Shown here: one piece after another, positions 2,514-22,920 of the stretch | Position numbering within the stretch: the stretch's first letter is position 1 | How the letters are laid out: the number at the start of each line of letters is the position of its first letter | From: a virus | Direction: 5' to 3' (one strand) | Length of the DNA: 28,151 bases | IMG/VR virus record: IMGVR_UViG_3300025087_000263 | Coordinates: 1-28,151 of that record | The notes under the pieces: model-generated | What the model was told of the DNA's origin: nothing | Database searches by the model: none | Seen by the model: the letters and a program-made list of their open reading frames with translations, nothing else | Program-made: the position numbers and the translations under genes

Positions 2514-3488
2514 TTAAGATGTTGATAATATTGCGCTTCTTACAATAGGAAAATCTAAGGGGTCTCTAACAATAGGAGATCTGTCTAAAATCATTGAATC
2601 ATCCCTATCTTTATATGCATCAATTAAAGCTAACAACCCTCCATAATCACCATCCTTTTTAGCTTGCAAAGCTGTGACATTGTAATTACCTGACCAAAAG
2701 AAATTATCAAACCTTGTAGCGGTTTCTAAATCTTTCTGCTTCATGGCATAAAAGTCTGATATTGTGCCTATTGCCAAAAGATCATGCCCTTCTTCCGGTA
2801 TTTCAGGTGACTGACCCACCACATAAGTTGGAGTTGCTTCGGTAGCCTCTTCAAAATATGTTTCCAATTCAAAGGCTGCTGTACCTGCAGATATAGAACC
2901 TATCCGATACCATGATCCCCTTGGTTCTCCGCCTGAATCTGTCAAAGAAAACCAAAACCCAGCTTTTAGTGTTGTTGTAACACCCGTTGTTAAAGTAACT
3001 GTCTGATCGTTAACTGTAACGGCTGCTGTACCCGTCGAGTAATCCTCAAAATATAAAGGTACTGCCCTTTGTGTGTAGTTTATTGTTATAGTCCCATCAT
3101 CCTCAAAATCATAAGGCCAGATGCCGTAATCATTTGCCCGTCTAAAAAACCTTTCGGGGAAGTTACCCACTACGGTTTCAGCGTTAAGCCTATCCCATTC
3201 CTGCTGGGCATAGACAGGGGAAAGGGGATAATCAAATCCACCTATCGTAACTACAATAGATTCAATCTCCCTTAAATTAGGTGGATTGTAGTAATATTGT
3301 TGGGAATCACCATTAGCATCACCGGATGTTGCGCTTCTAGTTAAAACTTGTGTCCAGGTGTTTAATTTGTCAGTTACAACTTCATATCTTCTGTTTATTC
3401 TTTGTTTTAGGAAGGTTTTAATAGTTGAATTAGTCGTACCTGCCCCATCCTGAGCTGTAGTGATAATATCGGAAAAAGTTTGTCTCAT
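2514..3488 (-). CDS. Head-tail adaptor protein (SU10-adaptor-like)
   Basis: The 324-aa protein begins with a helical segment (TFSDIITTAQ...TIKTFLKQRINRRYEVV) and continues with the pattern PERFFRRANDYGIWPYDFEDDGTITINYTQR, which resembles the 'PExxxxRGNxxxxxPxPxxxxTixxxYxR' core of adaptor proteins that dock on the portal in SU10-like and P22-like phages. A beta-rich insert occupies about residues 145-220, and the C-terminal part is helical (DLLAIGTISDFYAMKQKD). It would connect the portal ring to the tail nozzle. The gene follows a promoter-hairpin leader and precedes the 616-aa tail protein. The family call rests on motif resemblance, without a search. Confidence 0.6.
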   Translation of the reverse strand: MRQTFSDIITTAQDGAGTTNSTIKTFLKQRINRRYEVVTDKLNTWTQVLTRSATSGDANGDSQQYYYNPPNLREIESIVVTIGGFDYPLSPVYAQQEWDRLNAETVVGNFPERFFRRANDYGIWPYDFEDDGTITINYTQRAVPLYFEDYSTGTAAVTVNDQTVTLTTGVTTTLKAGFWFSLTDSGGEPRGSWYRIGSISAGTAAFELETYFEEATEATPTYVVGQSPEIPEEGHDLLAIGTISDFYAMKQKDLETATRFDNFFWSGNYNVTALQAKKDGDYGGLLALIDAYKDRDDSMILDRSPIVRDPLDFPIVRSAILSTS

Positions 3489-3505
3489 AATTTAACAATA
3501 AAAAA

Positions 3506-3528
3506 GCCCCACGCAAAAAACGTGAGGC
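3506..3528 (-). terminator. Leader hairpin with T-tract before adaptor gene
   Basis: On the minus strand GCCTCACG pairs with CGTGGGGC-type sequence around a T6 loop, with one G-T pair, followed by CTTTTTT. It has the form of an intrinsic terminator for the 417-aa gene upstream (stop at 3558). However, the TATAAT box lies upstream of it, so it also falls in the 5' leader of the adaptor mRNA. Confidence 0.6.
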
Positions 3529-3550
3529 AAATACCTATGAGTATATTATA
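3529..3550 (-). promoter_or_regulatory. Promoter -10 and start motif for adaptor unit
   Basis: Minus strand reads TGTTATAAT at 3553-3545 (extended -10), then seven bases and TAGGTATTTGCC, a variant of the 12-mer shared by six gene starts in this window. No good -35 is present at 17-18 bp (TACCTT). The bases from the -10 to the start codon are nearly the same as in the portal leader. Confidence 0.55.
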
Positions 3551-5160: not shown

Positions 5161-6426
5161 TTATACCTCGTATCCTGTAACTATCCCCTGAATGTTGCCC
5201 GCGCTAGTTGTAAGCAGGAGATCGGAAGCATCTTCCCCGCTAAATACAGGAGTTTTAAAGGGTCGTGACATTCCACTATTAGCAGCATAAGCACCACCAA
5301 TTCCTACTACTGAATCCCCTGCTGCCAAATCATCCTCAAATGTTACAGTGGCAGCAGCAGAAACAACATAATGAATATCGGTGATATACCATCTTTTACC
5401 TGCCGCAGGACTCCAAATGATTGCATCTGTTTGTGCGCCAGTTAGATTGAATGTTTTATTGACCTTATTACTTCCAAGTACTGCAAAATCTTCTTCTGAA
5501 TCTATTACATGAATTGCCCCCGATTTCGAATGAGAGGTAGGGATATAATCTAAATCTGTCCCCGCTAAAGCTACATTGGGAGTATCATTCCTTACCCCCA
5601 GATTCATTACGCCCGTATCACCCGAAGTATGTCCAGCATCTTCAGCTTTACCCAGGTTTGTTGCACCAGTTCCAGGCACAACAGATGATGTTATAGAAGC
5701 TAAGGTGACATCATTGTTTGTTCCTAAATTAACCAAGGTTCCATCTGTAGAATCGCCTTTTTGCCTATCCCAGGTTGTTCCATCAAAAACATATCCTAAA
5801 GCACTGACATTGATTGTATCCGTAGTATTTACTAGATCATCAGCTTGGGTAGTAGTAATTAAAGAAGCTGTACCCAAAACATTGGAAAAATCAGTTCCCA
5901 ACATCACATCTTGTGAATCTTGGACAGCAAAAGTGCCAGCATTAGAAACAGGTTGTGTAGCTTGCCAAAAGGTGCCACTTACGGGAACCGTTGCCCCACT
6001 TGCAGCAATATTTACATCCATTTGGGAGGAAGCATTTATAGCAGCTGCAAGTTCAGTAAGCCCTGTATTGGTTACAGCTACGGCATTCGTAATGGAAGTA
6101 ATTGTTCCTGAAGTTACAGTAATATCATTATTCGTACCTAGATTAACTAGCAAACCATCCGCTACAGTCCCTTGTATTGGCAGAAGGGTACTAGAAGCCC
6201 CCTCCATTAGCATAGCTGTACCAGTAATAGTAGTATCGGTATCGCCTTCGGTATATTGGGTTAAACCTAATATAGTGTCTATACCAACGATATGAACAGT
6301 TAAACCTCTAGTGGTAGTATCATATTGAAAAGGCCTAATAGAAGCTGCTGAATCAGTCGCAGAAGACACCCCCCCTACTGCTGCTATGAAATTTTGATCT
6401 TTTGGAAGCACACCCGCTGTAGCCAT
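5161..6426 (-). CDS. Beta-rich virion/fibre protein, 421 aa
   Basis: Low-charge, Thr/Ala/Gly/Val-rich protein of the kind found in phage fibres and capsid spikes. It contains the phrase SGTFWQATQPVS near residue 150, which recurs in many phage structural proteins, and an internal repeat DGxLVNLGTNND(I/V)T at about residues 89-101 and 225-237. The last about 110 residues look like a compact beta domain (GKRWYITDIHYVVSAAATVT). It begins a transcription unit behind its own promoter and hairpin leader; no Shine-Dalgarno is present. Placed upstream of the 111-aa and 417-aa genes, which end the unit. Confidence 0.6.
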   Translation of the reverse strand: MATAGVLPKDQNFIAAVGGVSSATDSAASIRPFQYDTTTRGLTVHIVGIDTILGLTQYTEGDTDTTITGTAMLMEGASSTLLPIQGTVADGLLVNLGTNNDITVTSGTITSITNAVAVTNTGLTELAAAINASSQMDVNIAASGATVPVSGTFWQATQPVSNAGTFAVQDSQDVMLGTDFSNVLGTASLITTTQADDLVNTTDTINVSALGYVFDGTTWDRQKGDSTDGTLVNLGTNNDVTLASITSSVVPGTGATNLGKAEDAGHTSGDTGVMNLGVRNDTPNVALAGTDLDYIPTSHSKSGAIHVIDSEEDFAVLGSNKVNKTFNLTGAQTDAIIWSPAAGKRWYITDIHYVVSAAATVTFEDDLAAGDSVVGIGGAYAANSGMSRPFKTPVFSGEDASDLLLTTSAGNIQGIVTGYEV

Positions 6427-6442
6427 AATTTAAATAATAAAA

Positions 6443-6464
6443 ACCCACACTCAAAAGTGTGGGT
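6443..6464 (-). terminator. Leader hairpin with T-tract before 421-aa gene
   Basis: Perfect 8-bp stem ACCCACAC/GTGTGGGT with a TTTTGA loop followed by TTTTATTATTT on the minus strand. It is 26 bases after the coiled-coil gene stop at 6490, yet downstream of the TATAAT at 6486, so it lies inside the leader of the 421-aa gene mRNA. Confidence 0.65.
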
Positions 6465-6489
6465 AAATTCCCATAAGTTAATTATACCA
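6461..6489 (-). promoter_or_regulatory. Promoter -10 and start motif for 421-aa unit
   Basis: TGGTATAAT (extended -10; TATAAT at 6486-6481), seven bases, then TGGGAATTTACC, a near-perfect copy of the shared 12-mer. The -35 region is poor (AAATAC at 18 bp), so the extended -10 probably compensates. Confidence 0.6.
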
Positions 6490-8150: not shown

Positions 8151-8360
8151 TTAGTTTGCTTTACCTTTCGGTTTAGCATCCTCTTCATAAATAGCTATAA
8201 TTGTTGAAGGAGAGATAATCATTGCCCCCGAGTCTGTAAAATCAATTCTAGGACGGTTTGTCCCGATTAAAATACCATTTTCTTTTAAGAATTTATTTAA
8301 AACTATTTGCGCTGATTCTCTGGTAGATGGAATTGGTTTGCGGTTTTCAGATTCAGACAT
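8151..8360 (-). CDS. Small unknown protein, 69 aa
   Basis: First gene of a unit with its own strong promoter. A polar N-terminus (MSESENRKPIPSTRESAQ) precedes a helix (IVLNKFLKEN) and a strand-rich middle (GILIGTNRPRIDFTDSGAMIISP), with a basic end. No family recognised. The start lies only two bases after the conserved leader motif TAGGAATTTACC, so its 5' UTR is predicted to be about 15 nt and has no separate Shine-Dalgarno apart from the AGGA in that motif. Confidence 0.55.
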   Translation of the reverse strand: MSESENRKPIPSTRESAQIVLNKFLKENGILIGTNRPRIDFTDSGAMIISPSTIIAIYEEDAKPKGKAN

Positions 8361-8363
8361 GTT

Positions 8364-8413
8364 GGTAAATTCCTATTAAAATAATTATACCACAATGAAA
8401 TAAGCTATATCAA
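8364..8413 (-). promoter_or_regulatory. Strong promoter of the 8360 unit
   Basis: TTGATA at 8413-8408, 18-bp spacer, TATAAT at 8389-8384 preceded by TGTGG (TGG extended -10). Eight bases later is a perfect TAGGAATTTACC, which reaches to the start codon with only AAC between. The -35 box directly abuts the TAG stop of the 177-aa gene. No hairpin in this leader. Confidence 0.75.
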
Positions 8414-11094: not shown

Positions 11095-12216
11095 TTATTC
11101 TATTCCGTCTATATTATATAATTGTCCATTTCTTCGTGGTTCATCCGCACAGACATTTCCGACTACTGCAAAGTAAGCTACTGTTCCAAGCTGAGTAACC
11201 AAAGACTCATCTTTTCTGTAAAACCAACCCACAGGTGATGGAGGCATATCAATCATAGCTGCGCTTGACTCATATCCTTCACCATCACCCAAAGATACTT
11301 TTTCATATCTTTCTCTCAATCTAGATGGAACCCTATCATTACCATACCAACCGAATGTTCTCTCGTTTAACATGTAAAGTGATTCTGCTTTGGCACTGTC
11401 GTCTTTAATAATAGGAACTTGTCGATAAAACATGGTTGTGAATCCTGCTCTTGCTCCAAATTCCCCTGGAGCCAGAACCTCTAAGCCCCGAAGCGGAAGT
11501 TTAGGCATTTGGTTTGACTGATATTGATTCTGTAAAAATGGAGTAAGTAACTCCTCAATGAAAGACCAGACTGTTTTAGTGGTAACCCCGATTGTAGGTG
11601 AACCCTCTTTTGATCCTGAAGCTGATACAGCATCCATGAGGGCTGAAATCTTAGCTGCCGTAACAACAGTTAAAGCATCTGTGTAAGTTCCTCTTAATAC
11701 CGTATATGTAGTTTTGGATTGTCCACCAATTGTAGTTTTTAGAGTTCCACTATCTGCAAATGAATCCAAACCCTCCGGCTGGTCACCTACTCCTGCATCA
11801 AAGATCACATCTCCCAACTCTTGTGTCACAACTGCTGCAGCCTCTTTATATTTGAAAGATTCCAAATCAATCACCCCTGCATCACCATCATTGGCAAAGT
11901 CCTCAAAGTCAATCATAGCCTTAGGCTGGACACCCATTACTCTAGCGTAATTTAACTCAATAGTGTTATTAACTGCTGATGCTGAAAGTTCCTCGCCTCC
12001 ACCACCAAGCCATCTGAACTGAGAATCTTTGGAGTGAGTAACAGTGAAAGTTTTATATTTACCAGAGAAGGACTTACCCATTGAGAAAACACGGGAACCA
12101 AATGTGGTTGCTACTAATACATTGTCAATCACCTTCCTATAAAGGTCTCTATTTGAAAAGTTTTCTACTCTGTTGGAGAGTGCTATTCCGTCATAAGTTG
12201 TGCTAAATGTAGGCAT
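11095..12216 (-). CDS. Major capsid protein
   Basis: The 373-aa protein fits the length and layout of HK97-fold coat proteins: N-terminal arm (about 1-45), an E-loop-like Gly-rich stretch (FRWLGGGGEEL at about 68-78), a spine helix (KEAAAVVTQELGDVIF) and a C-terminal ending with GNVCADEPRRNGQLYNIDGI, close to the 'GNLxxxNPRRxGxLxGI' end of many coat proteins. The scaffold gene lies directly upstream. It has the best promoter in the window, so high late expression is expected. No N-terminal protease domain is fused. The coat assignment is firm; a P22-like or other subclass cannot be settled here. Confidence 0.88.
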   Translation of the reverse strand: MPTFSTTYDGIALSNRVENFSNRDLYRKVIDNVLVATTFGSRVFSMGKSFSGKYKTFTVTHSKDSQFRWLGGGGEELSASAVNNTIELNYARVMGVQPKAMIDFEDFANDGDAGVIDLESFKYKEAAAVVTQELGDVIFDAGVGDQPEGLDSFADSGTLKTTIGGQSKTTYTVLRGTYTDALTVVTAAKISALMDAVSASGSKEGSPTIGVTTKTVWSFIEELLTPFLQNQYQSNQMPKLPLRGLEVLAPGEFGARAGFTTMFYRQVPIIKDDSAKAESLYMLNERTFGWYGNDRVPSRLRERYEKVSLGDGEGYESSAAMIDMPPSPVGWFYRKDESLVTQLGTVAYFAVVGNVCADEPRRNGQLYNIDGIE

Positions 12217-12226
12217 TTTTTTCCAT

Positions 12227-12252
12227 TAAAAAACCCCGACTTTCGTCGAGGT
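12227..12252 (-). terminator. Leader hairpin with GAAA loop and T-tract before coat gene
   Basis: Minus strand ACCTCGAC-GAAA-GTCGGGGT, an 8-bp stem with one G-T pair and a GNRA tetraloop, followed by TTTTTT. It lies between the coat promoter and the coat start codon, ending about 10 bases before ATG. Intrinsic-terminator form, but it is in the 5' leader. Confidence 0.65.
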
Positions 12253-12298
12253 AATTTCCTATGTTTTAATTATAGAACAATTAAAAATAGTTTGTCAA
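12250..12298 (-). promoter_or_regulatory. Consensus promoter of the coat protein unit
   Basis: TTGACA at 12298-12293 and TATAAT at 12274-12269 with an 18-bp spacer: both hexamers are perfect sigma70-type consensus. Seven bases later is TAGGAAATTACC, a one-base variant of the shared start motif, which runs directly into the hairpin stem. It is the strongest promoter seen in the window and lies just after the scaffold stop. Confidence 0.85.
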
Positions 12299-14201: not shown

Positions 14202-16241
14202 TTATATTCCTATCATATTTCTAATCCCACCCATAGCTCTTTGCATGATATTAGGACTTCCCTGTGGCTCTGTAGCAACATTAGATATATCCTGGGGTGA
14301 TGGTATGGTAGGTGGTGGCTGTACTACTCCCGGTTGTCCACCGGCCTCTGCCCCTGGTATTTCTTGCTGTGTTTGTCCGACCACCTGGTTTGCCATTTCT
14401 GCAATATCCTGTCCTAAGACTATCTTTTTATACCACAGCTCAGGAGAGGTATTAAACAGGAATAATGCCTCAGCCCTACCTTCGGGATCGGGAATGCCAG
14501 TATCTTTATAGTAATAGTAGGGTTCTATTAGCTTAAGCTGTGCCATTTGCTGGGCGTTTCTCTCAGCCCTCAGCTTATCGGTAGTTGATGCCTTAACCAC
14601 TACCTCCAAGCCATCGTCTATTGAGTCATTGTTTAACCTCAAGTGTAAATATTTACCCTCCTCAACTCCTGCTATCTGCTTCCAGTGTTCCTCGGTATAG
14701 CGGAGCTTCATCATGTGCATACGCGCTTTAGCAGATTCTGTGGCAACGTGCAAAATAGTATCATTGACCAGATCATCATTAGCTGTAAAATCAGCCTCCC
14801 TTGATATTTGATTTGAAGTAGCAACCTGAGTTGTAAGCTCACCTCTTGTAGCCCCATGTACCGACACTTTGGCAAAAATTCTCTCTAATCTTGCCCTGAC
14901 GTGTTGAAACATCTCAGCCGGAGGCATCACAGGCTGGATAAAACCATGTGTTTGGTTAAGATCACCCTTAATACTTGTAATATCAGCATCAGGATTATTC
15001 ATATCCAGCTTCTTTAGATCTTTTTTAGTCATACCTGAATCAGCACCCCAAAGATGCTTACCTTTGTGGTTTTTAACCATATGGTCTATTTGGCGTTCTA
15101 CATCATCCCTGGATTTTTGAAGTGGGATAGTCTGCTCAATCCTGGAGGTTTGGTCTATAGCAGAAAGCAGGAACTGGTCAAAGGTCATAAAGATAAAAGG
15201 CTTTTTAGGGAACTCAAAATAATTATTAAAGACCTTTTTAATCTCAAAGCCCTGTGGCTGTTGGCCTGTCAGCATAATCTGCTCCATTATCTCAGGTGCT
15301 ATAGGCTCACCATTCACCATTGCCACATCGTGTCCTTCATAATCCCAATTAGGATTTTTACTCTTACCTAGTAATACCTCTTTAGATAGCTTCCAAGCTA
15401 CACCGGACATAAAGTTAAACTTAACATTGCTCTGCGGGTCAAAATCCTCTGCCTTATCAAACCAGTCATACCAGCACTCGGCCACTCTAACCTTTTGAGC
15501 CATTAACACATCCTCATCCTCTGCATTTTCGGCTAGTCTTGGGTGGGCTTTGGCAATATGCTTTTTAATATCCTCCTCTTTATCAGGAAACAACATAGCC
15601 CATTCTTTGGCGGTTTTCTCTACATAATGGATAATAAACTGCATCTCATCAGGGTCAGAGGATAGAGCAGTGTGGTCTACTACTATATGGTCAGGATTAA
15701 TAACTTCCTCTACAATATCCCCGATCTTTTTTCTTGAAGCATCCCACCTATATTTCCTGACAGCTATGAGGTAGGCAGGCATGTGCTTAAACATCATGCC
15801 TAAATCACGCTTGTTTTTATCACTATCAACTACCTTTTCTATAGCCTTGGTTAAAACCTCGGCTGTTAGTTTCCTGGCCTCATCTCCTCCCACACCACCC
15901 GGCTCAATAACAATATCAGGCATCTTAGATACAGCCAGCGCCTTGAGCATCTTTTCAAACTCATAGATAATGTTATCCACTAGCTCTGACTCATAGGGCT
16001 TAAGCTGTCTGCCTAGTAACTGCTTACCGAATAGATACTTAATATTCTGTTTTCTTCTCTCTTTTAGGTTGATGCCATCAGGTCCTGATTTATTCCAATG
16101 CTCATCAGCTGCCTTTTCCAGCCCTGTTAGATATCTAAGTAGCTTTTTATCCTCAATTTCCACTGTTAAAGGTGCAAGGGTGGGAATAACTCCTGTTTCG
16201 GGGGTAAACCTATTATTTGTATCAATAATCTGTGAATCCAT
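14202..16241 (-). CDS. Portal protein
   Basis: I place the start at 16241 (MDSQIIDTNN) rather than six codons upstream, because the upstream codons lie in the leader hairpin; this gives 679 aa, in the range of large podovirus portals. The layout fits: helical N-terminus, ERRKQNIKYLFGKQ, an internal region with IVVDHTALSSDPDEMQFIIHYV, a stretch with RDDVERQIDHMVKNHKGKHLWG, helices such as HVRARLERIFAKVSVHGATRGE around the channel, and a Pro/Gln-rich C-terminal tail. It would form the dodecameric ring at the capsid vertex and dock TerL. Upstream neighbours are TerL and a zinc-ribbon protein. Confidence 0.85.
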   Translation of the reverse strand: MDSQIIDTNNRFTPETGVIPTLAPLTVEIEDKKLLRYLTGLEKAADEHWNKSGPDGINLKERRKQNIKYLFGKQLLGRQLKPYESELVDNIIYEFEKMLKALAVSKMPDIVIEPGGVGGDEARKLTAEVLTKAIEKVVDSDKNKRDLGMMFKHMPAYLIAVRKYRWDASRKKIGDIVEEVINPDHIVVDHTALSSDPDEMQFIIHYVEKTAKEWAMLFPDKEEDIKKHIAKAHPRLAENAEDEDVLMAQKVRVAECWYDWFDKAEDFDPQSNVKFNFMSGVAWKLSKEVLLGKSKNPNWDYEGHDVAMVNGEPIAPEIMEQIMLTGQQPQGFEIKKVFNNYFEFPKKPFIFMTFDQFLLSAIDQTSRIEQTIPLQKSRDDVERQIDHMVKNHKGKHLWGADSGMTKKDLKKLDMNNPDADITSIKGDLNQTHGFIQPVMPPAEMFQHVRARLERIFAKVSVHGATRGELTTQVATSNQISREADFTANDDLVNDTILHVATESAKARMHMMKLRYTEEHWKQIAGVEEGKYLHLRLNNDSIDDGLEVVVKASTTDKLRAERNAQQMAQLKLIEPYYYYKDTGIPDPEGRAEALFLFNTSPELWYKKIVLGQDIAEMANQVVGQTQQEIPGAEAGGQPGVVQPPPTIPSPQDISNVATEPQGSPNIMQRAMGGIRNMIGI

Positions 16242-16274
16242 AAAAAAAGCCCCACACAAAAAAAAGCGTGAGGC
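16242..16274 (-). terminator. Leader hairpin with T-tract before portal gene
   Basis: Minus strand GCCTCAC (16274-16268) pairs with GTGGGGC (16255-16249), one G-T pair, around a T-rich loop, then TTTTTTT directly followed by the portal ATG. The terminator form abuts the start codon itself. Confidence 0.6.
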
Positions 16275-16296
16275 AAAGACCTATGAGTATATTATA
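16273..16296 (-). promoter_or_regulatory. Promoter -10 and start motif for portal unit
   Basis: TATAAT at 16296-16291, seven bases (ATACTCA), then TAGGTCTTTGCC. The seven bases and the following motif are nearly identical to those before the adaptor gene at 3488. The -35 is weak (TATTCA at 18 bp). Confidence 0.5.
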
Positions 16297-17248: not shown

Positions 17249-18727
17249 TTATTCTTCTTCATTAAATATTTCTGCATCTTCTATTATACTACTATTTGCC
17301 TCTGTTTCCTCACCACCTCTTGAGGCTGATTCAATCTTAGCATCAATCCACCTCAACTCTGAAAATCCATATCTTACAGAATCAAGTGCATCATCTTCCC
17401 CGGAGTCATCTATATCTTCAACTTTATTCTCATCATGTATAGCAATTGGTAGTGTCCTGATTAGATTTACACAACTTTCGGTTATCTGCCAGTAGGGTTT
17501 ACCATCAGGAGCCATAGATAACCATTGTTGCATATTCTCCCACCCTGCAACTCGGTTTTTACTGGCTGTTTTTAATAGACCATTGTAATTTGAGTCATAC
17601 TTATAAAATAAATCTGCTATGGTTGTTCCCATGTCTGTTGCAGAAGGTGAGAATATTTGATTATCAGACATAATGTCATTCAAATTTGATAACTTAATAC
17701 TATATCCTTCCAACCTGCCTTCAATAATCTTTGCCCATGCGTCAGGGTATTTATCGTTTCCATAAACTTCAATAAATGTAACAATCCGGTAAAAGGTTTG
17801 ACCATTAAAAGAAACGGGGAATACATGATGGATATAGAAAGCAAAATTATCTACACGCCCCCAATCCATACTGCCTAATAAAAACCCTTTTTCAATATCA
17901 GGGTAATATCTTGATATAACATGCAGATCCCATCTAAAGGTTTTGAAAAACTGCCCTGCAAATATATCCCATTCACCCTCCCGCCATGCTTTACCAAGAT
18001 CGCCTATTAAACTTTCTAAGAATTGAATATACTCCTTATTAAGATATGGATTTGACCTATAGGTTGAACCAATAAATCTAGTTTCTGTTTCTGTCCCTTC
18101 CCTAAATGGCAAGATATATCTACTTTTTACATGATCGTGACCTATCCCCCCAGGATTAAAAGAAGTATACATACGGGGTCGCCAATCTGGTTTACTTGTT
18201 CTTAAAGATCCTCTTAGTTTTAAATATTTATCACCTGTTAATTGATTTAATTCCTCTACAATAATAAAATCATATTCGATACCGATATACTTATCTATAT
18301 CACTCGCTGTTTTAAATCCTCCTAAAACAATTCTGGAACTATTAGGGAATTTTAATACATTGGTCGTTCTCTCATAAACAATTCTGCCTTTTATAACCTT
18401 CTCAATAAGATCATCAAACGATTCCTTTGCTGCAACCCCTGTTTGTCTTAAAAAAAGCCCTTTCAGGCCCGGAATACGTTGGCAGTCATCAAATGAGGCT
18501 TGTGCTAAAACTGCATGAGATTTACCTGGCCCTCTGGCTCCTCCTACACCAATATCAACCGGACCATTAGCGTCATCTGCCATTCTGGCTGCCGCATGAA
18601 ATTCCCATTGCCAAGGTAACGGAATATAACCTGAAGTTATAAATCTATCGGTTTGATCTCTAGGAGCACCTGCCTCTTTAGCTGTGGTTAAACACTTCAT
18701 CAGTGCTGTTTGTTTTGGGTTGTCCAT
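17249..18727 (-). CDS. terL: Terminase large subunit
   Basis: The 492-aa packaging motor. ATPase: Walker A GGARGPGKS at residues 62-70, Walker B DFIIVEE at 153-159 with the catalytic Glu, and the coupling motif SFNPGG at 189-194. Nuclease: GSMDWG with D288, then SATDMG and the late Asp in DALDSVRYG, giving the RNase H-like acidic cluster; the linker has the usual GEWDIFAGQFF. It cuts concatemers and pumps DNA through the portal at the capsid vertex. Start overlaps TerS by 50 nt; a second ATG at codon 10 would cut the overlap to about 23 nt, and neither has a clear Shine-Dalgarno. Confidence 0.95.
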   Translation of the reverse strand: MDNPKQTALMKCLTTAKEAGAPRDQTDRFITSGYIPLPWQWEFHAAARMADDANGPVDIGVGGARGPGKSHAVLAQASFDDCQRIPGLKGLFLRQTGVAAKESFDDLIEKVIKGRIVYERTTNVLKFPNSSRIVLGGFKTASDIDKYIGIEYDFIIVEELNQLTGDKYLKLRGSLRTSKPDWRPRMYTSFNPGGIGHDHVKSRYILPFREGTETETRFIGSTYRSNPYLNKEYIQFLESLIGDLGKAWREGEWDIFAGQFFKTFRWDLHVISRYYPDIEKGFLLGSMDWGRVDNFAFYIHHVFPVSFNGQTFYRIVTFIEVYGNDKYPDAWAKIIEGRLEGYSIKLSNLNDIMSDNQIFSPSATDMGTTIADLFYKYDSNYNGLLKTASKNRVAGWENMQQWLSMAPDGKPYWQITESCVNLIRTLPIAIHDENKVEDIDDSGEDDALDSVRYGFSELRWIDAKIESASRGGEETEANSSIIEDAEIFNEEE

Positions 18728-19196
18728 ATACTTTATTTAAAAGTTTATCTATATCTATTGGCTGAATTTTCTCACCATTAGTTGTTACGTCAACCTTATC
18801 AGTCAATCTCTTTTTTAATTTCAATGTCGTTTCCAAATATTTATGTCTTACTGCAAAATCTTCTACCTCAATAAAATCATCAGTATCAGTCATCGCATCA
18901 ACTTTAATCTCGTGTCCTGTTTTAGCACCCTGTACAATCTTTCTTGCCCCGATTTGTTTGGTTGCATCTAATCCTTCCAATATTTTCTGGTTTAACAAAG
19001 CATCTGTTAAGCCTGCTTCTTCCAAGAGATCAGTATAATCAACTTCTTTCAACATTCTACTACCCAACTCAGCTGCTGAATGTTCAGTAACTTTAGGATG
19101 TAATAATTTGTAGGCTTGACCCGCGTCTTTAAGTTTACAATAAGCCTTAATAAAAGCTCTTTGGGCTAACTCTTTTAATTTTTCACTTTTAGGCAT
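18678..19196 (-). CDS. terS: Terminase small subunit
   Basis: The 172-aa protein has an N-terminal helix-turn-helix region (QRAFIKAYCKLKDAGQAYKLL...TEHSAAELGSRMLK, about residues 11-52) of the type that recognises the packaging site in TerS proteins, followed by helices for ring assembly (ALLNQKILEGLDAT) and a later DFAVRHKYLETTLKLKKRL block that recurs in phage TerS. It sits directly upstream of TerL, overlapping it. AGGAG lies about 10 bases before the start. Confidence 0.8.
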   Translation of the reverse strand: MPKSEKLKELAQRAFIKAYCKLKDAGQAYKLLHPKVTEHSAAELGSRMLKEVDYTDLLEEAGLTDALLNQKILEGLDATKQIGARKIVQGAKTGHEIKVDAMTDTDDFIEVEDFAVRHKYLETTLKLKKRLTDKVDVTTNGEKIQPIDIDKLLNKVYGQPKTNSTDEVFNHS

Positions 19197-19609: not shown

Positions 19610-19829
19610 ATTTTACCTTATATATTTTTAATAATTCATCTAAAATATACCAACTTATAGGGTGAATTACTGCTATCTCATCTGGGCGATCACTTAAACC
19701 TGTTGCTACACGGGCATAACTTCTATATGTACCGAATTCTTTTACTGCTATCATTTTACCTATCTTACCTACAACTTCTATGTTTGGTTGATCTTTATCA
19801 ATATGTTCTAAAATAGTGCCTGTTTTCAT
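19593..19829 (-). CDS. Small unknown protein, 78 aa
   Basis: Not recognised. It is strand-rich (NIEVVGKIGKMIAVKEFG, YARVATGLS) with a C-terminal helix (WYILDELLKIYKVKY). It starts by an ATGA overlap and ends 17 nt inside the next gene. Position between the GroEL group and terminase gives no clear role. Confidence 0.5.
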   Translation of the reverse strand: MKTGTILEHIDKDQPNIEVVGKIGKMIAVKEFGTYRSYARVATGLSDRPDEIAVIHPISWYILDELLKIYKVKYEKQT

Positions 19830-20215
19830 TTTTCCTGTACCTTATAATCATCCTTTAACTTAGGATTTCTATTTAAACCCTTTTTGCCATTTTCTAATGT
19901 TCTATGATGCCTTGTCATTGATTTATATACATACTTGGCATTTTTAATGTCCTCTTTTGTTACTCCTGCCAGCTTTTCAGTTCCATTAACTTCTATAAAC
20001 TCCCTAGATAACACTCCATTTACCCAAGGCTGGTACATTTCTGATCCATATTCCAATCTGTCTGCCTTTGTCTTGGATGAGGCAAAATCAAACGTCCTAG
20101 TTTGTGAAGGGCTTATGATAGCTCTATCTTTAGCTAAACAATCCTCACACTTAAGGAAACCATACTCTCTACTAAACCCAGCCTTATTCTTACAACCAGC
20201 TTCCAGACAATTCAT
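19826..20215 (-). CDS. Zinc-knuckle protein, 129 aa
   Basis: Cysteines C3, C8, C23 and C26 make an N-terminal zinc knuckle (C-x4-C-x14-C-x2-C), followed by a charged region with no known fold and a basic C-terminus that ends RNPKLKDDYKVQEK. Start overlaps the previous stop as TAATG. Similar N-terminal knuckles occur in small phage proteins close to terminase, but no function is known to me. Confidence 0.55.
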   Translation of the reverse strand: MNCLEAGCKNKAGFSREYGFLKCEDCLAKDRAIISPSQTRTFDFASSKTKADRLEYGSEMYQPWVNGVLSREFIEVNGTEKLAGVTKEDIKNAKYVYKSMTRHHRTLENGKKGLNRNPKLKDDYKVQEK

Positions 20216-20528: not shown

Positions 20529-22121
20529 TTATCCTCCTTTCCTTTCATCTTCTTCCTCTAAAACAACAGATATTGCATCGGAAGTTAAAAGCAGAATGGC
20601 TACAGATACAGCAGACCTTAGAGCCTCGGTAATAACTAGAGTAGGATCAATAATACCTGACTCTATTAGATTTTTAACTTGTAGGTCGAGGACATCTACT
20701 CCAAAACCAAACTCTTTATCTTCCAGCTTTGCCAGATAATAAGCATGGTTGACACCTGCATTAGATAACAATTTCTCAAAAGGTTTCTCTACAGCATTAC
20801 TTAAAATCCTGAAAGCATACTCTTCATCTTGTCCTTGGGCTTGTAACACTTTTCGGGCAGACAAAAGCGTTACTTCACCTCCGGGGACAATTCCCCCCTC
20901 TATGGCAGCTCTGGTGGCCAAAATAGCATCCTCAACTCTCTCTTTCCTTTCTCCCATTTCAATCTCTGTAGCACCGCCTGTTTTAATGACATATACCCCA
21001 CCAGTCATCTTAGACAACCTTTCTTTTAATTTCTCCTTATCTATATCAGTATCCGCATCCTGCATTAGTAACTTAATTGAAGCAATCCTTTGTTTGATGG
21101 CCTTCGAGTTACCTTTATTACCGAGAATAATTGTTGAATCCTTGGATGATTTAACTACCTCTGCAAAACCTAAATCCTCAAATGTTAAATCTTTAATAAG
21201 TTTGCCATCTGCATCATCAAGCACCGATCCACCGGTCATTATGGCAATATCCTCAAGCATCTCCCGCTGGTATTTGCCAAAGGAGGGGGATTTAACACAA
21301 AGTAGGTTCATTTTACCCTGTCTTTTAGTTTCTAAAATAGAGGCTAGAGCTGTACCTGTGACATCTTTGGCTATAATTACTAAGTTTCTGATTTGTTTGG
21401 GTTTTAACTGTTCTTCGATAAAAGGTAGCAGTTCATAAATATCCTCAAGCTCTCTATCCAATAGGAGAATATAGGCATCTTTAACAACTGCGGTTAGGGT
21501 GGCGACATCTGTAATAAACTTCCATGACATATATCCATGATCTATTGAAATACCCTCCTGATGTTCAAGGGTAGTTTCATTACTTTGGCTCTCATCAGCC
21601 GTTATTACCCCATCCACGCCAATCTTGTGGTATGTATCGCCAATCATCTCACCTAACTTGGGATCTTCTGAGGAAATAGTGGCAATTTGGATTTTTTCTT
21701 CCTTACTTTTAATTGATTTGGATAGTCTTTTAACTTCTTTAATAAGTAAATCCCTGCCTTTTTCAAGCCCATTCTTGAGGCTCATGGCATTAACGCCGGA
21801 GTCAATTAAGGTCATGGCTTCCTTGGCTATGTGATAACCTAAAACTATTGTCAAAGTTGTGCCATCACCTACCGCCGAAACGTGCTTTTCCGCAGCTTCC
21901 CTTAAAGTAAATGCCCCCACACTTTCAAACCTATTCTCAGGATTAACAAATCTCGAAGTCTTTAGACCATCATGTAAAAACTGCACGTCAAAACCTTTGT
22001 GGATTGCAACATTCCTGCCTCTTGGTCCTAAAGTTGCAGAAACTAAATCATAGACCTGTTTTGCCCCTGCCATCAGGGAATCTCTAGCTTCTTTGTTATA
22101 TTTGTGGGCGGTGTGACTCAT
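20529..22121 (-). CDS. groL: Phage GroEL-type chaperonin
   Basis: The 530-aa protein is a full-length group I chaperonin: SATLGPRGRNVAI (29-40), the catalytic DGTT block with D86, the hinge and apical regions (GYMSWKFI, DAYILLLDRE), and ERVEDAILATRAAIEGGIVPGG with D398, the ATP-hydrolysis Asp of the family. Differences from bacterial GroEL include LHDGLKT for the usual TNDGVT block, VPGGE for VPGGG, and a charged tail (EEDERKGG) in place of the GGM repeat. It folds substrate proteins in the central cavity, presumably the coat or other virion proteins. It overlaps groS by 4 nt. Confidence 0.93.
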   Translation of the reverse strand: MSHTAHKYNKEARDSLMAGAKQVYDLVSATLGPRGRNVAIHKGFDVQFLHDGLKTSRFVNPENRFESVGAFTLREAAEKHVSAVGDGTTLTIVLGYHIAKEAMTLIDSGVNAMSLKNGLEKGRDLLIKEVKRLSKSIKSKEEKIQIATISSEDPKLGEMIGDTYHKIGVDGVITADESQSNETTLEHQEGISIDHGYMSWKFITDVATLTAVVKDAYILLLDRELEDIYELLPFIEEQLKPKQIRNLVIIAKDVTGTALASILETKRQGKMNLLCVKSPSFGKYQREMLEDIAIMTGGSVLDDADGKLIKDLTFEDLGFAEVVKSSKDSTIILGNKGNSKAIKQRIASIKLLMQDADTDIDKEKLKERLSKMTGGVYVIKTGGATEIEMGERKERVEDAILATRAAIEGGIVPGGEVTLLSARKVLQAQGQDEEYAFRILSNAVEKPFEKLLSNAGVNHAYYLAKLEDKEFGFGVDVLDLQVKNLIESGIIDPTLVITEALRSAVSVAILLLTSDAISVVLEEEDERKGG

Positions 22122-22423
22122 TGTATTTTCAATAATATCCTTCCAAATGGAGCAATAATAAATCTATGTCTGGGATCACCTTTATATTCCAGTTTTGTCT
22201 CTTCGATTCCGGCTATTGAATATAATACAAAATCTCCAACCTTAACAGGACATTCCTGTTTTATTCCATAATCAGATATTTTGGTATCACCCACAGCAAT
22301 AACAGTACCCTTATAAGGTCTGTCAACGGAATCCTGGATAGTCATATAATCTGATTTTTTGTCTTTTTCGAGTGGGTCAATAAGACAAAAGCCTGAAGTA
22401 GGGATATAAGTTATCTTTGTCAT
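22118..22423 (-). CDS. groS: Phage GroES-type co-chaperonin
   Basis: The 101-aa protein has the co-chaperonin core: KGTVIAVG (39-46), PVKVGDFVLYSIAG and the final RHRFIIAPFGRILLKI strand. The mobile-loop region (about residues 18-36, EKDKKSDYMTIQDSVDRP) differs from bacterial GroES, so it may be tuned to the phage GroEL. It would form the seven-membered lid on GroEL. Its stop and the groL start overlap as ATGA. It is the first gene of a unit controlled by the same promoter type as the virion genes. Confidence 0.88.
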   Translation of the reverse strand: MTKITYIPTSGFCLIDPLEKDKKSDYMTIQDSVDRPYKGTVIAVGDTKISDYGIKQECPVKVGDFVLYSIAGIEETKLEYKGDPRHRFIIAPFGRILLKIQ

Positions 22424-22427
22424 TATT

Positions 22428-22477
22428 GGTAAATTCCTAATATACTAATTATAAAACTATTATTAGCACAATATCAA
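22428..22477 (-). promoter_or_regulatory. Promoter of the groS-groL-terminase unit
   Basis: TTGATA at 22477-22472, 18-bp spacer, TATAAT at 22453-22448. Eight bases later a perfect TAGGAATTTACC, then four bases and the groS ATG. No hairpin in the leader. Identical in design to the promoter at 8413-8364. Confidence 0.75.
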
Positions 22478-22599: not shown

Positions 22600-22920
22600 T
22601 CATATATTATTTAACTTTGCAAACTTACCAAAATATTTTAATGCAGCATAATTATAAGCATAAGCAGCTTCTATTTTTGAATTAAAATAACCAAGATGTA
22701 TTTTTCTTGAATTTAAACGTATATAAGCCATCCAACGTTTACTATAAATAAACCAATGAACTCCTTTATATCCTGAAGTATTATTTTTATGTAATTTTTG
22801 GTTCATTCCATTCTGACTACCCGTAACGATTCTTAAATTCTCTTTTCTATTATCAAGAGTATTATGGTTGATATGATCTATTTGTTTATCTTTAAAAGGA
22901 TTGACTATAATTCTAAACAT
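22600..22920 (-). CDS. HNH-AP2 endonuclease, N-terminally truncated
   Basis: The 106-aa product starts at MFRIIVNPFKDKQIDHINHNTLDNRKENLRIV, the core of HNH endonucleases, followed by an AP2-type DNA-binding domain (SGYKGVHWFIYSKRWMAYIRL...HLGYFNSKIEAAYAYNYAALKYFG). Full-length family members usually have some 50-60 residues before this, including a strand-rich lead; here an in-frame stop lies four codons upstream of the ATG. So the N-terminal part is lost or replaced. Probably a decayed mobile element; the HNH catalytic part is only partly present. Confidence 0.75.
   Translation of the reverse strand: MFRIIVNPFKDKQIDHINHNTLDNRKENLRIVTGSQNGMNQKLHKNNTSGYKGVHWFIYSKRWMAYIRLNSRKIHLGYFNSKIEAAYAYNYAALKYFGKFAKLNNI

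Follow-up and report, generated by a model that had tools for sequence, protein, structure and literature searches.

A GroES-GroEL-like gene pair upstream of the terminase genes in a divergent clade of uncultivated phages

Known phage chaperonins and the window pair

Phages with both chaperonin proteins and single-ring phage GroELs are already known. In particular, some phages possess both GroEL and GroES (PMC7185714), and phages with both proteins as well as marine and soil viral GroELs have been published (PMC7185714, PMC5332604, PMC8407431, PMC8390657). For the chaperonins of phages EL, OBP and AR9, single rings or ring separation have been reported (PMC7185714, PMC9598537, PMC5934643), and these proteins are reported to act without a co-chaperonin (PMC9598537, PMC5934643). 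Phages T4 and RB49 encode only the lid, gp31 and CocO, respectively, which caps the host GroEL.

The locus described here lies in a 28,151-base linear IMG/VR virus record, the whole of which was analysed and is called the window below. Like EL, OBP and AR9, it encodes a phage-owned GroEL-like protein, but those three come from giant phages and reportedly need no co-chaperonin, whereas the window encodes a cognate GroES. That GroES is a phage co-chaperonin like gp31 and CocO and has the gp31 fold in common, but here the phage encodes GroEL too. Flavobacterium phage immuto (MW353176) and other phage pairs in IMG/VR have the arrangement of the window, with groES followed directly by groEL in a tailed phage. 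Immuto differs in lying on a separate tree branch, in keeping K51, V264 and IVL-like loops, in its 160 kb genome and in its pair adjoining DNA polymerase, whereas the window pair precedes the terminase genes. Since the immuto phages carry an annotated pair, as do many IMG/VR contigs, and PMC7185714 agrees, the view of an earlier note on this DNA that a coupled pair is in itself unusual is not supported.

The complete 39 kb circular genome MW202566 from Manatee Spring (Caudoviricetes sp. cthkR962) belongs to the viral clade described below and has GroES-GroEL upstream of TerL and portal. Its GroEL is 38% identical to that of the window and keeps G416 and T91, and its record names the GroES "mhsp60". 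We found no description of the clade in the literature searched, a comparison outside of which lies the main viral-chaperonin survey, Marine et al. 2017 (ISME J 11:2479).

The gene pair and a recurrent promoter element

Both open reading frames of the pair are intact, and the groES stop and groEL start codons overlap as ATGA (Table 1). The family assignments from Pfam, PHROG and NCBIfam are consistent, and the complete GroES-GroEL pair claimed in the earlier note is indeed present. Its placement inside a head/terminase unit needs amending: the terminase and head genes do lie 3′ in the same orientation, but the pair is upstream of the terminase genes and not between them, and the gap that separates them holds four small open reading frames. 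One of these encodes a putative Zn-ribbon protein with weak possible counterparts in the related loci L011 and L003.

Table 1. Features of the window discussed in the text
Feature	Position	Strand	Length	Evidence or context
GroES-like co-chaperonin	22118..22423	-	101 aa	Pfam Cpn10, PHROG groES, AlphaFold model, PDB comparison
GroEL-like chaperonin	20529..22121	-	530 aa	Pfam Cpn60, PHROG groEL, model, Z to 1SS8
Small putative Zn-ribbon protein	19826..20215	-		Between chaperonin and terminase; 55% identical in L002
Terminase small subunit (TerS)	18678..19196	-		PHROG 51, 1.5e-4
Terminase large subunit (TerL)	17249..18727	-		PF04466 8.6e-11; PHROG 979 6e-16
Portal protein	14202..16259	-		PHROG 156 7e-10; 69% identical to L002 homologue
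Major head protein, candidate chaperonin client	11095..12216	-		PHROG 9953 4e-17; 84% identical to L002 homologue
Promoter-like TTGATA-N18-TATAAT (22477-22448) plus leader TTAGGAATTTACC after -10 box	22428..22477	-		Directly upstream of groES
Promoter/leader element	16272..16296	-		Upstream of portal gene
Promoter/leader element, -35 TTGACA	12250..12274	-		Upstream of major head protein gene
Promoter/leader element	8364..8389	-		Upstream of gene 8151-8360
Promoter/leader element	6462..6486	-		Upstream of gene 5161-6426
Promoter/leader element	3526..3550	-		Upstream of gene 2514-3488

The GroEL-like protein scores above the Pfam Cpn60 cut-off (PF00118; 3e-50, 171.7 bits, cut-off 34.3) and above those of two NCBIfam subfamilies (NF009487, 484.6, cut-off 352; NF000592, 477.9, cut-off 397), and it matches PHROG 5725 groEL at 6e-117. 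With TIGR02348, the GroEL equivalog model, it reaches 469.1 bits, under the cut-off of 582.1. Thus, it is homologous to the curated bacterial GroEL equivalog and has the same architecture, yet lies outside the equivalog. Its predicted structure (mean pLDDT 87.3) has the three-domain GroEL fold with no built-in lid and aligns with solved GroELs at Z 44-45 over 519 residues (44.2 to E. coli 1SS8).

The GroES-like protein is above the Pfam Cpn10 cut-off (PF00166; 1.7e-6, 28.4 bits, cut-off 21.1), matches PHROG 3188 groES at 1e-7 and falls below the cut-offs of all 10 NCBIfam GroES equivalog and subfamily models listed (best 33.2 bits vs 136). A direct tblastn search of the phage collection with GroES gave no match, as the sequence is too short and too divergent, and profile searches were therefore needed for its relatives. 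The AlphaFold model (mean pLDDT 86.6) is of low confidence mainly at residues 21-40, which is expected because the mobile loop is situated there. In the PDB comparison it aligns with Thermus thermophilus Cpn10 (1WNR; Z 13.4), E. coli GroES in 1AON (12.0) and T4 gp31 (8.3 and 8.8).

The window and E. coli pairs thus have their fold, ATPase aspartates and operon order in common at only 37% (GroEL) and 22% (GroES) identity. The ATPase residues said in the earlier note to be kept, D51, D86 and D398, correspond to E. coli D52, D87 and D398, and the GDGTT motif is present. The departures it listed in GroEL, an altered DG loop (HDG), VPGGE and the lack of a GGM tail, are likewise all there. The first of these reflects histidine at the position of E. 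coli K51, which varies in cellular GroELs too (N in the Bacillota sequences). Other differences from E. coli are V264E, loss of the IVL loop and replacement of R452, E461, S463 and V464.

The promoter-like element upstream of groES recurs before the portal gene, the major head protein gene and three further genes, in agreement with the virion-class promoter proposed earlier. The combined pattern, TATAAT-N(4-10)-TRGGNNWTTNCC (TATAAT plus a TAGGAATTTACC-type leader), was written after the sites were seen; it occurs six times in the window, always on the minus strand, and in none of 100 shuffles. The exact pattern was not found in the other loci. A looser one, written afterwards, occurs at three sites: before groES in both L002 and L137 and, elsewhere on the L002 contig (L098), before the counterpart of gene 8151-8360. 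These sites are the only, partial, independent check of the pattern. Because it recurs before them, it is likely a control element common to the chaperonin and virion-cluster genes. We also note that in four of the six elements a short hairpin and then a T-run come right after the leader (3498-3550, 6426-6486, 12216-12274 and 16259-16296), which would resemble a terminator or attenuator before the gene.

On the 5′ side of the pair lie an HNH/AP2 endonuclease-like open reading frame, a DNA methyltransferase, an SLT-lysozyme-like protein and a baseplate-like protein. The first of these (22600-22920; HNH_3/AP2 homing-endonuclease-like) is just 5′ of the chaperonin promoter, and the HNH profile matches only from position 17; it is perhaps a remnant or intron-borne. 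A search of Rfam for a group I intron around it gave no match at E ≤ 1.

A divergent viral clade

The nearest relative, L002, has the same gene order, and its GroEL and GroES are 71% and 63% identical to those of the window. The terminase looks swapped between the two (window 17249-19196, L002 10508-12424), with TerL only 30-36% identical and no match for TerS, whereas identity is 69% for portal, 84% for the major head protein and 71% for GroEL. L011 and MW202566 also have the gene order of the window, with GroELs near 40% identical. Further relatives were found by a scan for DNA encoding VGDGTTLT.

In a tree of 66 GroELs, 15 viral sequences including that of the window lie on one side of a branch with support 99/93, apart from every cellular sequence and from the other phage GroELs in the sample. 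We call these 15 the HDG clade; the position of K51 is H in 14 of them and R in one. The cellular sequences in the tree are a thin sample (E. coli, a few other Proteobacteria, Bacillota and plasmid GroELs), so a cellular group could still fall inside the clade. In this phylogeny, of the kind that the earlier note had proposed as a check, GroEL groups with phage relatives, and the pair is not a recent host copy.

Gene order is well conserved in the clade. GroES lies directly 5′ of GroEL in 14 of 14 readable members (the L123 contig ends there), and TerL is within a few kb downstream in 12, L133 being counted only if its contig is circular. In L112 the portal gene is downstream and TerL was not recognised, which brings members with TerL or portal to 13. 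TerL is elsewhere in L028 and none was detected in L103, and these two form the earliest branch of the clade. A genome size of about 40 kb is probable, given the 36-41 kb length of several contigs. The pair belongs to a distinct, old and divergent branch in what are probably small (~40 kb) uncultivated phages.

In two pairs of close relatives, dN/dS values of 0.025 and 0.045 (GroEL) and 0.04 and 0.12 (GroES) indicate strong purifying selection on both chaperonin genes. The GroEL and GroES distances mirror each other (r 0.77, 0 of 2000 permutations), a correlation that is mostly due to shared ancestry and so is no proof of contact between the two proteins.

Lid contact, ring interface and proposed role

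The I-V-L tripeptide of the mobile loop, which docks on GroEL helices H and I, is typical of GroES without strictly defining it. The mobile loop of the window GroES (about residues 20-37, KDKKSDYMTIQDSVDRPY) was described in the earlier note as different, and the tripeptide is in fact absent, the loop reading S-D-Y-M-T-I. In E. coli the tripeptide contacts GroEL L234, L237 and V264 (PMC3514286), and I25A or L27A abolishes GroES binding (PMC5575113). Within the HDG clade, the window group has E at position 264; L011, L110 and L125 have S, L112 has N, and L133, L103, L028 and L003 carry a hydrophobic residue (V, L or I). An aromatic residue (Y, F or W) replaces I25 in the loop wherever 264 is E or S and GroES can be read, whereas the loop is aliphatic in members with a hydrophobic 264. 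This association would fit a re-fitted lid contact; it comes from one clade and may represent one or two evolutionary events.

The ring interface is changed as well. E461 is lost in all 15 GroELs of the clade, two of which retain R452. Positions 452/461/463/464 read E/N/A/Y in the window and E/A/A/A in the single-ring mutant SR1 (R452E/E461A/S463A/V464A; PMC5653362). As loss of R452 and E461 is common among other phage GroELs with an ordinary loop, it is not special to this clade. Since all four SR1 positions are replaced in the window, its GroEL may work as one ring or as two rings that are only loosely joined, a less certain reading than those given below of its expression, clients and partner. 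Engineered single-ring GroEL-GroES required weakened GroES binding (PMC5575113). We suggest, tentatively, that the clade could hold a natural, self-contained single-ring GroEL-GroES of small phages, in which, besides the change at the SR1 positions, the GroES contact has been adapted to allow continued release of the lid.

Overall, we consider it likely that the two genes encode a functional, phage-owned group I chaperonin that is made with the virion proteins and folds some of them, and whose parts mainly recognise each other. The domains, selection, gene order and promoter element behind this reading come from sequence and the folds from prediction; we infer when the pair is expressed, what it folds, how exclusive the pairing is and how many rings are formed. 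The pair would be expressed together with the virion proteins, and at least one of these, most likely the major head protein or portal, would be enclosed in the cavity and folded there, with the phage's own lid closing it. Changes on both sides of the contact, V264 to E or S in GroEL helix I and I25 to aromatic in the GroES mobile loop, point to two proteins that bind chiefly to one another, which would leave the system largely independent of host GroEL and GroES. As these contact changes suggest that the two work together and not with host partners, coat or portal folding without the host chaperonin is plausible. Of the earlier note's overall interpretation, what stands is that both partners are encoded, have a promoter element in common with virion genes and precede the terminase in many relatives; what is not supported is the rarity of a coupled pair.

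A complete chaperonin pair is retained across a divergent lineage of phages with genomes of probably only about 40 kb. Its placement with the head genes and under a common promoter element makes the old question of chaperonin-dependent virion proteins directly testable, and the paired changes in lid contact and ring interface could reveal, in a natural system, whether one ring is enough for a GroEL-GroES cycle. The pair is also a possible orthogonal folding system for laboratory use.

The pair could instead serve in a host that has no GroEL and GroES, or an unsuitable one, with the altered interfaces being drift in proteins that never meet host partners; we regard this as unlikely. Such a host would require the complete pair and not GroES alone, and there are bacteria in which no GroEL is detectable. 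A GroEL match was found in only 23 of 100 mostly small genomes sampled from the phylum-level (Bacillota) group of L090, genomes that were not chosen as hosts and for which completeness figures are not given, so many bacteria of that group may lack GroEL. However, the HDG-clade contigs come from many different metagenomes, and a single GroEL-less host group would have to be widespread. A genome scan with window and L002 patterns for host inference returned only an Erysipelotrichaceae GroEL, 33% identical.

Less probable still is a general stress or auxiliary pair that sustains proteostasis in the infected host (in the cold, for instance) and does not fold virion proteins. A stress role has been proposed for Southern Ocean viruses carrying GroEL/GroES (PMC8407431), but the promoter element that the pair has in common with the portal and head genes and the conserved position before terminase and portal both point to virion assembly. 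That the proteins are structural or moonlighting parts, such as virion components, that have lost their folding function is very improbable: the pair does adjoin the head and packaging genes, but purifying selection has preserved the ATPase residues, the fold and the co-chaperonin alike. Recent capture of a host groESL operon or a chimeric assembly, for which only the bacterial groES-groEL order speaks, can be dismissed, given that several independent contigs repeat the neighbourhood (the chimera check of the earlier note), that identity is about 41% with the nearest cellular GroEL seen and 60-71% with the closest phage relatives, and that the genome scan gave no close cellular relative.

Two other kinds of groESL locus were seen among the sequences compared. 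L128 (6192-8110) and L134 (6255-8148), on contigs of 38-46 kb, carry a phage chaperonin pair in reversed order, groEL then groES, on a very long tree branch (length 3.2). Mobile groESL of another sort is represented by L094 and L095, groES-groEL pairs carried on plasmids of Salmonella and Acinetobacter; that of L094 lies between a resistance gene and a transposase.
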